A DNA stretch of 64,000 bases from Flavivirga amylovorans (GTDB lineage Bacteria; Bacteroidota; Bacteroidia; Flavobacteriales; Flavobacteriaceae): the NCBI RefSeq assembly GCF_030540875.1, contig NZ_JAUOEM010000002.1, positions 588,926-652,925 of the forward strand, read 5' to 3'. Made by a program: the position numbers and the translations under genes. The number at the start of each line of letters is the position of its first letter. Position 1 is the first letter of the stretch. Below the pieces are notes generated by a model. That model did not search any database, was not told the DNA's origin, and saw only the letters and a list, made by a program, of their open reading frames with translations. This document shows, in pieces, positions 30,685-64,000 of the stretch.

Positions 30685-30731
30685 AATAATTAATTATTTG
30701 AGGTTCTCGACCTCGGTTATTAATGAGGGCG

Positions 30732-59370: not shown

Positions 59371-60624
59371 TTATAACCCAAACACTTCTTTTACTTTATC
59401 AACATAATCCAATTTTTCCCAAGTGAATAATTCTACATCTAACGTTGTAGCTTCTCCATTAGGTTGTGCGAATGTTTTGGTAACCGTTTCGTTATTACGT
59501 CCCATATGACCATAAGCAGCAGTTTCACTATACATTGGGGAACGCAGTTTTAAGCGTTCTTCAATAGCAAAGGGGCGCATATCAAAAACCTCAGAAACTT
59601 TTTCAGCAATTTCACCATCGGTCATGTTAAAAGAACATGTACCATAAGTATCAATAAAAATCCCCATAGGTTCTACCACACCAATAGCGTAACTTACTTG
59701 CACTAAAACTTCGTCGGCTACACCAGCTGCAACCAGATTTTTTGCAATATGACGCGTTGCATAAGCAGCACTTCTGTCTACCTTACTAGGGTCTTTTCCA
59801 GAAAATGCACCGCCACCATGAGCGCCTTTACCACCATAAGTATCTACAATAATTTTTCTTCCAGTTAACCCAGTATCTCCATGAGGACCACCAATAACAA
59901 ATTTTCCAGTTGGGTTTATGTGGTATTTAATATCATTATTAAATAAAACCTGAATTTGCTCAGGTAGTTTAGCAACCACACGAGGAATTAAAATGTTAAC
60001 AATATCTTTTCTGATTTTGGCTAACATAGTCTCATCTTCATCAAAATCGTCGTGTTGCGTTGATACTACTATAGCATCAATACGTTGAGGGACATTATCA
60101 TCACTATACTCAATAGTTACCTGACTTTTAGAATCTGGACGTAAATAGGTAATCTCTTTATTTTCTCTTCTTAATTCAGCAAGTTCTATTAGGATTCTAT
60201 GCGATAGATCTAAAGCCAAAGGCATGAAATTTTCAGTTTCATTAGTGGCATAACCAAACATCATACCTTGATCACCTGCTCCTTGCTGTTCTTTACTTGC
60301 TCTATCAACCCCTCTATTAATATCGTCAGATTGTTCGTGAATTGCAGAAAGGACTCCACAAGAGTTACCGTCAAACATATATTCTCCTTTGGTATAACCA
60401 ATTTTGTTTATAGTTTCTCTGGCAATTTTTTGTACATCTAGATACGTTTTAGACTTTACTTCACCAGCAAGTACAACTTGACCTGTAGTAACTAAGGTTT
60501 CACAGGCTACTTTTGAGTCTGTATCGAAAGCTAAAAAATTATCAATGAGAGCATCACTAATTTGGTCTGCTACTTTATCTGGGTGTCCTTCAGAAACACT
60601 TTCCGAAGTAAATAAATAAGCCAT
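59371..60624 (-). CDS. metK: S-adenosylmethionine synthetase
   Basis: A 417-residue MetK that forms SAM from methionine and ATP. Key blocks are [20 protein letters not shown] (residues 9-28, ATP/methionine binding), the central [16 protein letters not shown] (P-loop-like), and [20 protein letters not shown] with the conserved [12 protein letters not shown]. The C-terminus closes with [15 protein letters not shown]. Length is in the normal range of 380-420. The 5' leader contains a SAM-II-like aptamer, so expression is probably repressed when SAM is abundant. Confidence 0.98.
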
Positions 60625-60671
60625 AAGTTATCTTTTATATTTTAGGATTTGACGATAGCGTCGAAGGAAGT

Positions 60672-60754
60672 TTACACTGCCTTTAGCATTTTTATTTTAT
60701 GCTGAAAACAAGCTCAGCATAAAGAGGTTGCAATCAGTCAAATCTTTCCTCTGT
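60672..60754 (-). promoter_or_regulatory. SAM-II-like riboswitch upstream of metK
   Basis: On the minus strand AGAGG (60752-60748) and CCTCT (60727-60723) form P1 around the conserved GATTTGACTGATTGCAA. The downstream ATGCTAAAGGCAG (60689-60677) matches the A-rich pseudoknot partner of SAM-II riboswitches. Between P1 and this segment lies an extra perfect 9-base-pair hairpin, TTATGCTGA/TCAGCATAA (60722-60714 with 60705-60697). The aptamer begins just after a -7-like box, TACTTTTG (60774-60767). About 50 bases separate it from the metK ATG. SAM binding would be expected to block translation, because the segment lies near the start codon. Confidence 0.72.
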
Positions 60755-60823
60755 TATTTGTGTTGGCAAAAGTAAAAAAATAAAAGGAAACGATAATTTG
60801 TTTTTCTTTTTTTTAAAAATAAA

Positions 60824-60854
60824 TTGGTTATTTCATAATAATTGTAAATATTTG
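60824..60854 (+). promoter_or_regulatory. Probable promoter of the ilv operon
   Basis: TTG (60824-60826) and AATATTTG (60847-60854) are separated by 20 bases. The -7 box matches TAnnTTTG except for its first base. Transcription would start 3-10 bases before the leader peptide ATG, so the leader peptide would be nearly leaderless. Confidence 0.45.
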
Positions 60855-60864
60855 TAAAAGTAAA

Positions 60865-60927
60865 ATGAAAAAGCAAATATTAAATATCGTTTCTATTATT
60901 GTCATTGTGATTATTTCGCAACGATAG
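60865..60927 (+). CDS. ilvL: ilv leader peptide
   Basis: A 20-codon frame encoding MKKQILNIVSIIVIVIISQR. Eleven of the 20 codons are Ile, Val or Leu (7 Ile, 3 Val, 1 Leu), concentrated in residues 11-17. This composition is far from random and is what ribosome-mediated attenuation of branched-chain synthesis requires. A perfect terminator follows 22 bases after the stop codon, and ilvD begins about 245 bases after the terminator. Starved ribosomes stalling on the Ile/Val codons would favour read-through. The gene symbol is by analogy with enteric ilvL. Confidence 0.8.
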   Translation: MKKQILNIVSIIVIVIISQR

Positions 60928-60949
60928 GGAACGCTATATATAAATTTTT

Positions 60950-60979
60950 AAAAGCCTTCCTTAATCGGAAGGCTTTTTT
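60950..60979 (+). terminator. ilv attenuator terminator
   Basis: AAAGCCTTCC (60951-60960) pairs perfectly with GGAAGGCTTT (60967-60976) around the 6-base loop TTAATC, and a T run follows. An alternative pairing of AGGGAA (60926-60931) with TTCCTT (60957-60962) would exclude the terminator and could serve as antiterminator. Confidence 0.85.
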
Positions 60980-61224
60980 ATTGCATATTTTTTAAATTTT
61001 GAACATCATAAAAATAACAGTTTAAAACATTGTTGTACAGTTGTTTATGTCTTTTTAGGTGGTTGTGGATTTAACCAGAAAAACCAAAGAATAATGTAAA
61101 CAAATACCTAAATAAATTAATTTCGAATATTATTTTAGACGGTTATAGGATTTTTAAAAGAATTCTTAAATCATTAAAAGATTAAATCAAAAAAAGGAAA
61201 AGTATAAAATTATCTGTAATAAAG
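60980..61224. other. Untranslated region between the attenuator and ilvD
   Basis: About 245 bases with no gene. It is AT-rich, and no second hairpin or clear promoter is seen. Confidence 0.4.
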
Positions 61225-62904
61225 ATGAAGGAACTTAATAAATACAGTAAAACAGTAACTCAGGATTCAACACAACCAGCGGCACAAGCCATGTTATATG
61301 CCATTGGTTTTTCTGAGGAAGACTTTTTTAAACCTCTTGTAGGGATTGCCAGTACAGGTTATGAAGGGAATCCTTGTAACATGCATTTAAATGATCTAGC
61401 AAAATTAGCTAAAGAAGGTACGAAGAATGAAGATCTGGTCGGATTAATTTTTAATACAATAGGTGTGAGTGATGGTATTTCGATGGGAACACCGGGAATG
61501 CGTTATTCATTACCTTCAAGAGATGTTATTGCAGATTCTATGGAAACTGTTGTACAAGCTATGAGTTACGATGGTTTAATTACTGTTGTAGGTTGCGATA
61601 AAAATATGCCGGGCGCATTAATTGCAATGCTACGTTTAAACAGACCTTCTGTTTTAATTTTTGGAGGAACAACAGACTCTGGCTGTCATGAAGGAAAAAA
61701 ATTAGATATCGTTTCTGCTTTTGAAGCATGGGGAAGCAAAGTTGCGGGAACAATGGAAGAAAGTGAATTTAAGAGCATTGTAAAAAAATCTATTCCTGGT
61801 GCAGGTGCTTGTGGTGGTATGTATACTGCAAACACAATGGCATCGGCTATAGAGGCTTTAGGAATGTCATTACCATATAATGGCTCTAACCCAGCTGGTA
61901 GTGATGAGAAAAAAGCAGAATCTATAAAGGCAGGAGAAGCTATGCGTTTGTTGCTTGAAAGAGATATTAAACCTTCTGATATTGTGACGCGTAAATCTTT
62001 AGAGAATGCCATTCGTTTGGTAACTATTTTAGGAGGATCTACCAATGCAGTATTACATTTCTTGGCTATAGCCAGAGCAGCGCAAATAGATTTTACTCTT
62101 AAAGATTTTCAAGATATAAGCGATACAACACCATTTTTAGCAGATTTAAAACCTAGTGGAAAATACTTAATGGAAGATTTGCATGCTGTAGGAGGTATTC
62201 CAGCGGTGTTAAAATATTTGTTGAAAGAAGGATTATTACATGGCGATTGTTTAACTGTAACAGGAAAAACATTAGCCGAAAACTTATTAGATGTTAATGA
62301 CCTTTCCGAAGGACAGGATATTATAAAACCTTTAGAAAACCCTATTAAAGCAACAGGACATTTACGTATGCTATATGGAAATTTAGCAGAAGATGGAAGT
62401 GTGGCTAAAATTACAGGAAAAGAAGGTTTGAGTTTTGTTGGTAAAGCGAAAGTGTTTAATAGTGAATACGACGCGAATGATGGTATTCGTGATGGATTGG
62501 TAGAAAAAGGGGATGTCGTTGTTATTCGTTATGAAGGACCAAAAGGAGGACCAGGCATGCCAGAAATGCTAAAACCGACTGCTGCTATAATGGGGGCAGG
62601 ACTAGGTAAGGATGTTGCTTTAATTACAGATGGTCGTTTCTCTGGTGGAACACATGGTTTTGTTGTGGGGCATATAACACCTGAAGCTCAAGAAGGAGGC
62701 ACTATTGCATTTGTAAAAGATGGCGATATGATTACCATTGATGCCGAAACAAATAGTATTTCTTTAGAAGTTTCAGAAGAAGAATTACAGGAAAGAAGAC
62801 AAAATTGGACAGCACCGAAATTAAAATTTGATAGAGGTGTTCTTTATAAATATGCAAGGTCGGTATCATCAGCATCAAAAGGATGTGTTACTGATGAATT
62901 CTAA
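61225..62904 (+). CDS. ilvD: Dihydroxy-acid dehydratase
   Basis: A 559-residue Fe-S dehydratase that converts 2,3-dihydroxy-3-methylbutanoate (and the isoleucine analogue) to the 2-keto acid in branched-chain amino acid synthesis. Cluster cysteines lie at about Cys51 ([11 protein letters not shown]), Cys124 ([10 protein letters not shown]) and Cys197 ([14 protein letters not shown]). The C-terminal [15 protein letters not shown] and [16 protein letters not shown] are the family signatures. It follows the ilv attenuator and precedes ilvB by 43 bases, in which a palindrome of the TGCGAAGGC family sits. Confidence 0.97.
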
Positions 62905-62947: not shown

Positions 62948-64000
62948 ATGAGTATGGATACAGAAACAGCAAATAAAACACGGGAAGTGCTAAGTAAAAC
63001 AGAACGAATTACAGGTAGTGAAGCTATTATTAAATGCTTGATAGCAGAAGATGTAGATATTCTTTATGGATATCCAGGAGGTGCTATTATGCCAGTTTAT
63101 GATGAGTTATATAAATTCAGAAATGAAATTCATCATGTATTAACGCGTCATGAACAAGGTGCAGCACATGCGGCTCAGGGATTTGCAAGAATTTCTGGTA
63201 GAGTTGGTGTTGCCATGGCAACATCTGGACCGGGAGCTACTAATTTAATTACAGGAATAGCTGATGCTCAAATCGATTCTACACCATTAGTATGTATTAC
63301 AGGGCAAGTACCATCTCATTTATTGGGTACCGATGCGTTTCAAGAAACAGATATTATTGGTATTTCTACACCCGTTACTAAATGGAACCACCAAGTTACA
63401 AAAGCATCAGAAATTCCAGAAGTTTTAGCCAAAGCATTTTATATAGCTAAAAGCGGTCGTCCTGGACCTGTGTTGATTGATATTACAAAAGATGCTCAGT
63501 TTGGAGAACTTGATTTTAAATACGAAAAATGTACAGGTGTAAGAAGTTATATTCCAACACCAAAAACCAATTTAGAATCGGTGAAGGCTGCTGCCGAATT
63601 AATTAATGCCGCAAAAAAACCAATGATTGTTTGGGGACAAGGTGTTATTTTAGGAGAAGCAGAAACAGAATTAAAAGCAGTTATTGAAAAAGCTGGTATT
63701 CCTGCTGCTTGGACTATTATGGGGGCTTCGGCAATACCAACATCGCATCCCTTAAACATTGGTATGGTTGGAATGCATGGTAACTACGCACCAAATAAAT
63801 TAACCAACGAATGTGATGTGCTTATCGCAATCGGAATGCGTTTTGATGATCGTGTTACGGGCAGTTTAGATACTTATGCTAAACAGGCCAAGGTGATTCA
63901 TTTTGAGATTGATCCAGCTGAAGTTAATAAAAATGTATATGCAGATGTAGCGGTATTGGGTAACTCTAAAGATAGTTTAACAGAATTATTACCATTGTTA
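62948..64000 (+). CDS. ilvB: Acetolactate synthase large subunit, cut by window end
   Basis: The first 351 codons of the large subunit; the gene runs past the right edge. It condenses pyruvate with pyruvate or 2-oxobutyrate. The ThDP-activating glutamate is in VLTRHEQGAAHAAQGFAR, preceded by YGYPGGAIMPVYDEL. The TSGPGATNLITGIADA and ITGQVPSHLLGTDAFQE blocks, then the central domain (KKPMIVWGQGVILGEAETEL), are characteristic. The ThDP-binding C-terminal domain is beyond the window. An ATG at 62948 is chosen; a second in-frame ATG follows two codons later. Confidence 0.97.
   Translation, partial: MSMDTETANKTREVLSKTERITGSEAIIKCLIAEDVDILYGYPGGAIMPVYDELYKFRNEIHHVLTRHEQGAAHAAQGFARISGRVGVAMATSGPGATNLITGIADAQIDSTPLVCITGQVPSHLLGTDAFQETDIIGISTPVTKWNHQVTKASEIPEVLAKAFYIAKSGRPGPVLIDITKDAQFGELDFKYEKCTGVRSYIPTPKTNLESVKAAAELINAAKKPMIVWGQGVILGEAETELKAVIEKAGIPAAWTIMGASAIPTSHPLNIGMVGMHGNYAPNKLTNECDVLIAIGMRFDDRVTGSLDTYAKQAKVIHFEIDPAEVNKNVYADVAVLGNSKDSLTELLPLL

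Follow-up and report, generated by a model that had tools for sequence, protein, structure and literature searches.

The ilvD-ilvB-ilvN-ilvC-ilvA operon of Flavivirga amylovorans is very probably (about 0.9 by our estimate) controlled by a ribosome-mediated attenuator of the trp/his/ilv kind. Upstream of ilvD lie a short frame rich in isoleucine and valine codons, an intrinsic terminator and a pairing that competes with it, and all three recur in relatives far more often than in shuffled sequences. In a model of ribosome positions the run of Ile/Val codons ends where stalling would stop being useful. The earlier note on this DNA had proposed attenuation, and this reading is supported by the comparative and in-silico evidence. 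From these features we infer translation of the leader, ribosome stalling, a response to isoleucine and valine and a transcription start just before the frame.

Anatomy of the region upstream of ilvD

Positions are given in the window, the whole stretch of 64,000 nt that was analysed, and the features are collected in Table 1. The leader frame (60865-60927, plus strand) runs over 20 codons from an ATG at 60865 to the stop codon TAG at 60925-60927 and encodes the peptide MKKQILNIVSIIVIVIISQR with 7 Ile, 3 Val and 1 Leu. The frame, its codons and coordinates and the run IIVIVII in its second half had been described in the earlier note and proved accurate, the run being codons 11-17. A search of the window, plus and minus strand, for a run of at least 8 I/V/L in 9 residues followed by a terminator within 90 nt found this locus alone. 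Lowering the run to 6 or 7 of 9 added two places (54750 on the plus strand and 30266 on the minus strand); in 3000 shuffles of 60625-61224 the 6-of-9 setting matched twice and the 7-of-9 setting never.

Table 1. Features of the ilv leader region and the genes that follow, in window coordinates
Feature	Position	Strand	Basis
Putative promoter P1 (TTG 60824-60826, 20-nt spacer, AATATTTG 60847-60854)	60824-60854	+	Sequence
1:2 hairpin	60888-60933	+	MFE fold, pair counts
Control codons 11-17 (Ile Ile Val Ile Val Ile Ile)	60895-60915	+	Sequence, conservation
2:3 antiterminator (60925-60931 with 60957-60963 and 60933-60935 with 60953-60955)	60925-60963	+	Fold
3:4 intrinsic terminator (11 bp, loop TTAATC, T run)	60950-60979	+	Sequence, fold
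Conserved element (box A TTGAACATCATAAAAA 60999-61014, -7-like box TAATTTCG 61118-61125)	60999-61125	+	Alignment
ilvD, dihydroxy-acid dehydratase	61225-62904	+	NCBIfam TIGR00110, 737.8 bits, cut-off 618.15
ilvB-like frame, running off the window	62948-64000	+	Open reading frame, named by reading the sequence

The terminator arms AAAAGCCTTCC and GGAAGGCTTTT form 11 perfect pairs (60950-60960 with 60967-60977) at -15.7 kcal/mol. A perfect terminator with a T run had been noticed before and is present, although its stem is 11 bp long and not 10 bp as claimed. A consensus terminator scanner reported none in 60500-61500, in our view because most of the T run is tied up in the stem, and we used our own detector instead. 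Folding of 60920-60966 gave an antiterminator of 7 + 3 pairs around a single C60932 x C60956 mismatch, with a duplex energy of -11.1 (z -3.9 against shuffles of the segment), whose 5' strand begins with the leader stop codon. The pairing of 60926-60931 with 60957-60962 that had been pointed out is thus part of a larger one, to which the fold adds U60925-A60963 and the second helix; the antiterminator had been called short, but its geometry is classical.

The MFE fold of 60858-60985 contains the terminator together with a 1:2 hairpin, overlooked in the earlier note, that links the control codons to the stop region. Its inner helix pairs 60905-60910 with 60916-60921 and 60900-60903 with 60923-60926; the outer helix pairs 60888-60894 with 60927-60933 and is imperfectly regular on the G60931-C60932 side.

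Upstream of the frame we take the -33 TTG and its spacing to be a promoter element of P1. The AATATTTG box of P1 lies 10 nt before the leader ATG and has one mismatch to TAnnTTTG, the -7 consensus of Bacteroidetes (PMC9723704). TTTG stands at this column in 23 of 26 aligned relatives; of 59 leaders, 37 have it no more than 24 nt upstream of the ATG, compared with 71 of 354 control windows. The column lacks it in L002, L005 and L009, and the lack of a -7-like box in L002, the closest relative by ilvD, counts against the proposal. Promoter-like boxes thus predict a very short 5' UTR, which would make the transcript nearly leaderless. This would be uncommon, since leaderless mRNAs make up just 5.5% in F. 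psychrophilum (PMC9723704).

As the earlier note had it, the leader is followed by ilvD, identified by TIGR00110, and then by an ilvB-like frame. Open reading frames of the window and of locus L171 give the order ilvD-ilvB-ilvN-ilvC-ilvA, after which unrelated convergent genes follow; ilvA and ilvD were named by NCBIfam, and ilvB, ilvN and ilvC by reading their sequences. Among the open reading frames of this operon there are no leu genes, which fits an Ile/Val-rich leader with its sole Leu outside the control run. Divergent from the leader lies metK (named by reading), preceded on the minus strand by a SAM-II riboswitch (60673-60757). The minus strand also has an S16-Flavobacteria ribosomal protein leader at 30689-30724, and both are Rfam matches at gathering score.

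Conservation and covariation in relatives

We found ilvD matches in 90 of 149 relatives' genomes and read 70 upstream regions, leaving out partial and distant matches. Adding 80 named loci among the matches listed and dropping two with ambiguous letters (L095, L124) gave 148 regions. These do not equal 148 independent genomes because the sources overlap: L072 and L144 share their last 300 nt with L017 and L018, and L086 likely overlaps L037. L021, with its gene cut at a contig end, is without a true upstream region and was scored as a miss, and L049 and L135 offer 271 and 472 nt upstream.

The leader/terminator detector matched 56 of the 148 regions; among 1480 dinucleotide shuffles it matched 4, and among the 148 antisense sequences none. 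Its thresholds were fixed after the first sequences had been seen, and the rows are related and non-independent. At stricter settings 46 of 148 (7 of 9) and 21 of 148 (8 of 9) remained, with none of 1480 shuffles at either. When the antiterminator was also required, as a stop-region duplex at or below -6.5 kcal/mol, and 5 of 9 sufficed for the run, 55 of 148 regions matched, 51 with a single and 4 with a double unit; none of 592 block shuffles and none of 148 antisense sequences did. The other 93 gave no match with this detector; in many of them we saw no leader, and readable leaders below the thresholds occur in L011, L017, L059, L061 and L137. Named bearers are Flavobacterium, Lutibacter, Zobellia, Arenibacter, Dokdonia, Aquimarina, Gaetbulibacter and Algibacter, together with MAGs labelled Saprospiraceae and Ignavibacteriae.

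Conservation of the small frame and its Ile/Val codons, which the earlier note had named as the way to check its proposal, was borne out. Of the 161 cells that codons 11-17 make up in 23 leaders of twenty residues, 152 hold Ile (103) or Val (49) and 9 another residue. The terminator and the competing pairing also recur in relatives. Codons 18-20 of the same leaders hold 2 Leu and no Ile or Val among 69. Three genomes of the same genus (G003, G005 and G009; loci L055, L058 and L060) retain the leader, in G003 with a peptide identical to that of the window in every letter, above an ilvD just 69-70% identical to the window's, which suggests that ilvD was replaced under a retained leader. At locus L009 (G061) the leader has seemingly decayed, with no start ATG and mismatched terminator arms, and the element downstream of it is retained.

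For the inner helix of the 1:2 hairpin, 33 aligned sequences showed 92.3% pairing, compared with at most 58.2% for slid versions, and a covariation score of 0.234, compared with at most 0.097 (6 of 500 shuffles as high). Two-sided changes numbered nine, compared with 2.3 in shuffles (0 of 500), a count that alone is non-discriminating, since versions slid by -3 and +1 reached 8 and 9. Support was weaker on alignment A2 (22 rows, 11 of the 33 sequences left out), with 94.5% pairing, 2 two-sided cells (41 of 500) and a covariation score of 0.132 beside 0.127 and 0.136 for slid versions. Pairing in the outer helix was 91.4%, and no slid version exceeded 79.2%; the helix had 5 two-sided cells, compared with 2.0 in shuffles (10 of 500). 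Examples from alignment A1 are GTG to GTA with TCA to TTA (L057, L067), and GTGATT to GTGGTA with TCA to CCA in L011, where a Ser codon is lost and the stem kept. The covariation behind the 1:2 hairpin is fair, not overwhelming, and it partly supports compensatory changes there.

Since A1 (33 sequences) shifts the terminator arm in several rows, we recounted terminator and antiterminator on re-anchored sequences (30 distinct of the 33) and on A2. The terminator varied little on A2 (97.7% paired, 1 two-sided cell, 90 of 500 shuffles as high); re-anchored, it showed 4 two-sided changes against 0.75 in shuffles (2 of 1000). On A2 the antiterminator did not stand out from shuffles: 354 of 500 reached its 82.2% pairing (68% when slid by 1), and it showed no two-sided changes. 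This count is depressed because the leaders use two pairing registers and A2 imposes one. Re-anchoring gave 12 two-sided changes against 6.4 (2 of 1000) and a percentage paired weakly above shuffles (54 of 1000), in a set where the antiterminator strand was chosen by complementarity, which favours pairing, and some picks look wrong (L008, L075, L103). Covariation for the antiterminator is therefore mixed. Judged by duplex energy, the stop region and terminator arm beat shuffles at p <= 0.05 in 38 of 60 candidates and at p <= 0.01 in 28, with a median z of -2.5. In 39 of the 60 the stop codon lies at least partly in the paired stretch, which starts at the first or second base of the stop in 24.

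Some relatives carry two complete leader-terminator units in series before ilvD, as in L019, L020, L083 (Aquimarina) and L103 (Lutibacter) and, by eye, in L030 and L040; at the window's own ilv locus we found one. L100, an Ignavibacteriae MAG, has two leader-terminator matches, the second with a poor antiterminator (-5.7, z +0.9). In L019, L020, L030, L040 and L103 the first unit has a CCTTCC-type terminator and the second a CCTGTATC-type one. In units of the second type the stop codon TGA often opens a TGATACAG-like competing strand (e.g. L019, L033, L104), and in L020 and L040 this strand begins a few bases after the stop.

Leaders of similar design before other genes

A covariance model of the ilv unit found 106 places in 78 of 199 genomes of the family, of which we fetched and read 53, mostly weaker ones. 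Nineteen are Asn-run leaders before gatC/gatA, with one further degenerate copy; 9 lie before ilvD, 3 are His-run leaders before hisG, and 16 are without a leader and due to chance. Single leaders with an Ile/Val run, a Thr run, an Ile run, WW and a Met-rich peptide precede, respectively, IlvE-like, ThrA-like, IlvA-like and TrpB-like genes and a PLP enzyme of Met/Cys metabolism (L213, L214, L215, L246 and L247). We take the gene names at these places from the protein starts, except for gatA, gatC and gatB::aspS of the own genome. That the model found leaders of other pathways offers a route to a larger regulon. The genome of the window itself has a His-run leader, MNFIQLHHHHFHICSQAN, before hisG with a terminator 31 nt on (L172, G000:C7). 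The leader/terminator detector found no leader with a terminator upstream of the thrA-like and trpE-like genes of this genome.

Its Asn leader, MIRNNNNNNFNNPNF, lies at G000:C1:363208-363316 on the minus strand (L209/L270); in the fold of this copy the partner of the Asn codons is GTTATTGTT, next to the competing strand. The other Asn-leader loci (L211, L212, L222-L224, L226-L236, L238 and L239) likewise have a stop, a competing strand and a terminator. In the own genome the leader is followed by a GatC-like frame of 89 residues with an Asn-rich stretch (Pfam GatC, E 3e-4, 21.3 bits, cut-off 23), by gatA (TIGR00132, 428 bits, cut-off 481) and by a GatB-AspRS fusion of 1111 residues (L270:2681-6016, minus strand) that scores above the cut-offs for both parts. 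The full-length fusion occurs in 18 of 120 family genomes, including all 11 Asn-leader genomes present in both sets; in the other 7, no Asn leader was among the places read.

The own genome has AsnRS and GlnRS, no asnA match, and for asnB a best score of 60.2 bits against a cut-off of 267.1, so the gatC-gatA-gatB::aspS operon may be its route to asparagine. The Asn-run leader looks like an attenuator of tRNA-dependent asparagine synthesis, in which case charging of tRNA-Asn would determine how much of the Asn-tRNA-Asn-forming enzymes is made. NCBIfam lists an AspRS-GatC fusion, and in Bdellovibrio GatCAB occurs alongside AsnRS and GlnRS (PMC4206432). By title and abstract start, the literature found described neither a leader before gatC-gatA nor a GatB-AspRS fusion. 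We consider it rather probable that Flavobacteriaceae use one chassis for ilv genes (in some cases as two serial attenuators), for his and thr genes and, with an Asn run, for gatC-gatA-gatB::aspS. Its shared traits would be a very short 5' UTR, a leader stop codon placed in the antiterminator strand and, in many cases, a CCTTCC-type terminator.

Ribosome position, alternatives and known systems

In the proposed mechanism RNA polymerase would start a few nucleotides before the leader ATG. If Ile-tRNA or Val-tRNA were scarce, the ribosome would stall on codons 11-17 and leave 60925-60935 free to pair with the 5' arm of the terminator (60953-60963), allowing read-through into ilvD. With charged tRNAs plentiful, a ribosome at the stop codon would cover 60925-60935 and the terminator (60950-60977) would form. 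By pairing the control codons with the stop region, the 1:2 hairpin could additionally hold part of the antiterminator strand.

We modelled ribosome position with a footprint of 11, 13 or 15 nt past the first A-site base and RNA made up to 60964. The probability of the antiterminator was 0.98 with the A site at codons 11-16, 0.98, 0.93 and 0.63 (for the three footprints) at codon 17, 0.84, 0.25 and 0.25 at codon 18, 0.26, 0.26 and 0.00 at codon 19 and 0.00 at codons 20-21, so that the Ile/Val run ends where stalling stops being useful. In silico, antiterminator and terminator are mutually exclusive, and a ribosome at the stop codon masks the antiterminator. With stalls at codons 2-10 the antiterminator still reached 0.55-0.98, and the inner 1:2 stem, masked from codon 12 on, mostly still formed. 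In the absence of a ribosome the antiterminator had a probability of 0.68 and the inner stem of 0.95; the two can therefore coexist, and strong termination through the 1:2 hairpin is not to be expected when the leader goes untranslated. Since the antiterminator is free in both situations, the model fixes the 3' limit of the control window only. The 1:2 hairpin folds and is positive in part of the compensatory tests, and in the model it would act as a weak or partial protector.

Between the terminator and ilvD the earlier note had missed a promoter-like element, which consists of box A, a TTTAAA-like box, a TTGAATTTA-like box and a -7-like box. Box A with at least 13 of 16 matches and 128 nt following it was present in 59 of 150 regions. 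In 55 of these a -7-like box follows box A at a distance of 108-130 nt, compared with a mean of 4.4 and a maximum of 11 in shuffles; the patterns TAnnTTTG, TAnnTTCG, TAnnTTAG and TAnnTTTA were chosen after the alignment had been seen. Of the 68 -7-like matches, 55 sit at +117 to +119 of box A, and a TTGAATTTA-like box is found in 23 of the 59 regions (shuffled mean 0.2). Box A is a single copy in the genome when matched exactly and non-specific on its own at up to 3 mismatches (82 genome sites compared with 45 for a reversed control pattern). The element probably represents, with less certainty than the attenuator, a second promoter preceded by an operator of fixed length, to which an Lrp-like protein might bind. 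It may bypass the attenuator, and part of ilvD transcription would then escape attenuation.

This element lends some weight to a quite improbable alternative, that the hairpin merely ends a short upstream transcript and ilvD is driven and regulated by 60999-61125 only. Twenty-six of the 59 box A regions have no attenuator call, several with readable leaders below the thresholds, and the element also occurs where no leader is seen, in L015 and, by eye, in L016, which is outside the 59. Such an arrangement would however leave the conserved Ile/Val run and the antiterminator complementarity unexplained. Highly improbable is a reading of the short frame as a functional hydrophobic micropeptide, made from a short terminated RNA and without a role in ilv regulation. 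The peptide is indeed hydrophobic, and within the genus its sequence is well conserved, MKKQILN and SQR included, but wider relatives keep the Ile/Val run while much else changes, some C-terminal codons change jointly with their pairing strand, and the frame precedes ilv genes, just as analogous leaders with His, Thr and Asn runs precede hisG, thrA-like and gatC-gatA genes. T-boxes control ilv genes by termination in Firmicutes, and a riboswitch or T-box sensing an amino acid or tRNA directly could in principle act in the same place; we regard this as next to negligible, since no Rfam family matches at gathering score in 60824-61224 and the 18 Rfam matches with E up to 5 in 60624-61230 include no T-box. 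The best leader-family match, Phe_leader, scored 31.4 bits against a cut-off of 55 (E 0.0027). We rejected a T-box or riboswitch on these results.

The ribosome-mediated attenuator preferred here resembles, by description, those of the trp, his and ilv operons of enterobacteria in its frame of cognate codons, the few non-cognate codons before the stop, the competing 1:2, 2:3 and 3:4 hairpins, the T-run terminator and the cognate operon downstream. It differs in the predicted near absence of a 5' UTR, in a stop codon within the antiterminator strand and in a 1:2 hairpin that, in the model, would protect only partially; in the textbook trp operon this hairpin makes the untranslated leader terminate strongly. 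By eye we saw no Shine-Dalgarno site at the window leader, unlike at enterobacterial trp, his and ilv leaders. Such sites are reported absent in Bacteroidota (PMC9723704).

Leader-peptide attenuators in Bacteroidetes/Chlorobi are said to have been mentioned by Vitreschak et al. in 2004. As of 2010 leader peptides were described as known only from Proteobacteria, Actinobacteria and then Firmicutes (PMC2965389), leader-peptide-like sORFs are mentioned for Bacteroides (PMC7366714), and PMC9723704 places such attenuators in this phylum. The latter proposes leader-peptide attenuation for amino-acid operons of Flavobacterium psychrophilum, with a conserved 5' element upstream of hisG, that is, the same mechanism on the same class of operons in the same family. 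Its main text does not mention ilvD; its supplementary tables lay outside our search and may overlap with our findings. No paper on this ilv leader was found in literature listings that were incomplete and searched outside supplements. For Bacteroidota, where the literature found describes such regulation only in outline, the ilv leader provides a worked-out example of classical ribosome-mediated attenuation that can be put to the test.

From another phylum and on another operon, ilvBNC of Corynebacterium glutamicum is described as carrying a three-hairpin attenuator on branched-chain genes, as here (PMC11857589). The serial units of relatives recall mgtCBR of Salmonella, where two short frames share one leader region (PMC3641672); unlike mgtCBR, the ilv arrays repeat the same amino-acid class and precede biosynthesis genes. 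If the leaders are translated from nearly leaderless transcripts, ribosome and polymerase would have to become coupled within a few nucleotides of the start. The mechanism itself is classical and the ilv leader is a conserved new example of it, which its short 5' UTR, its stop codon in the antiterminator and the serial units of its relatives may make a variant.
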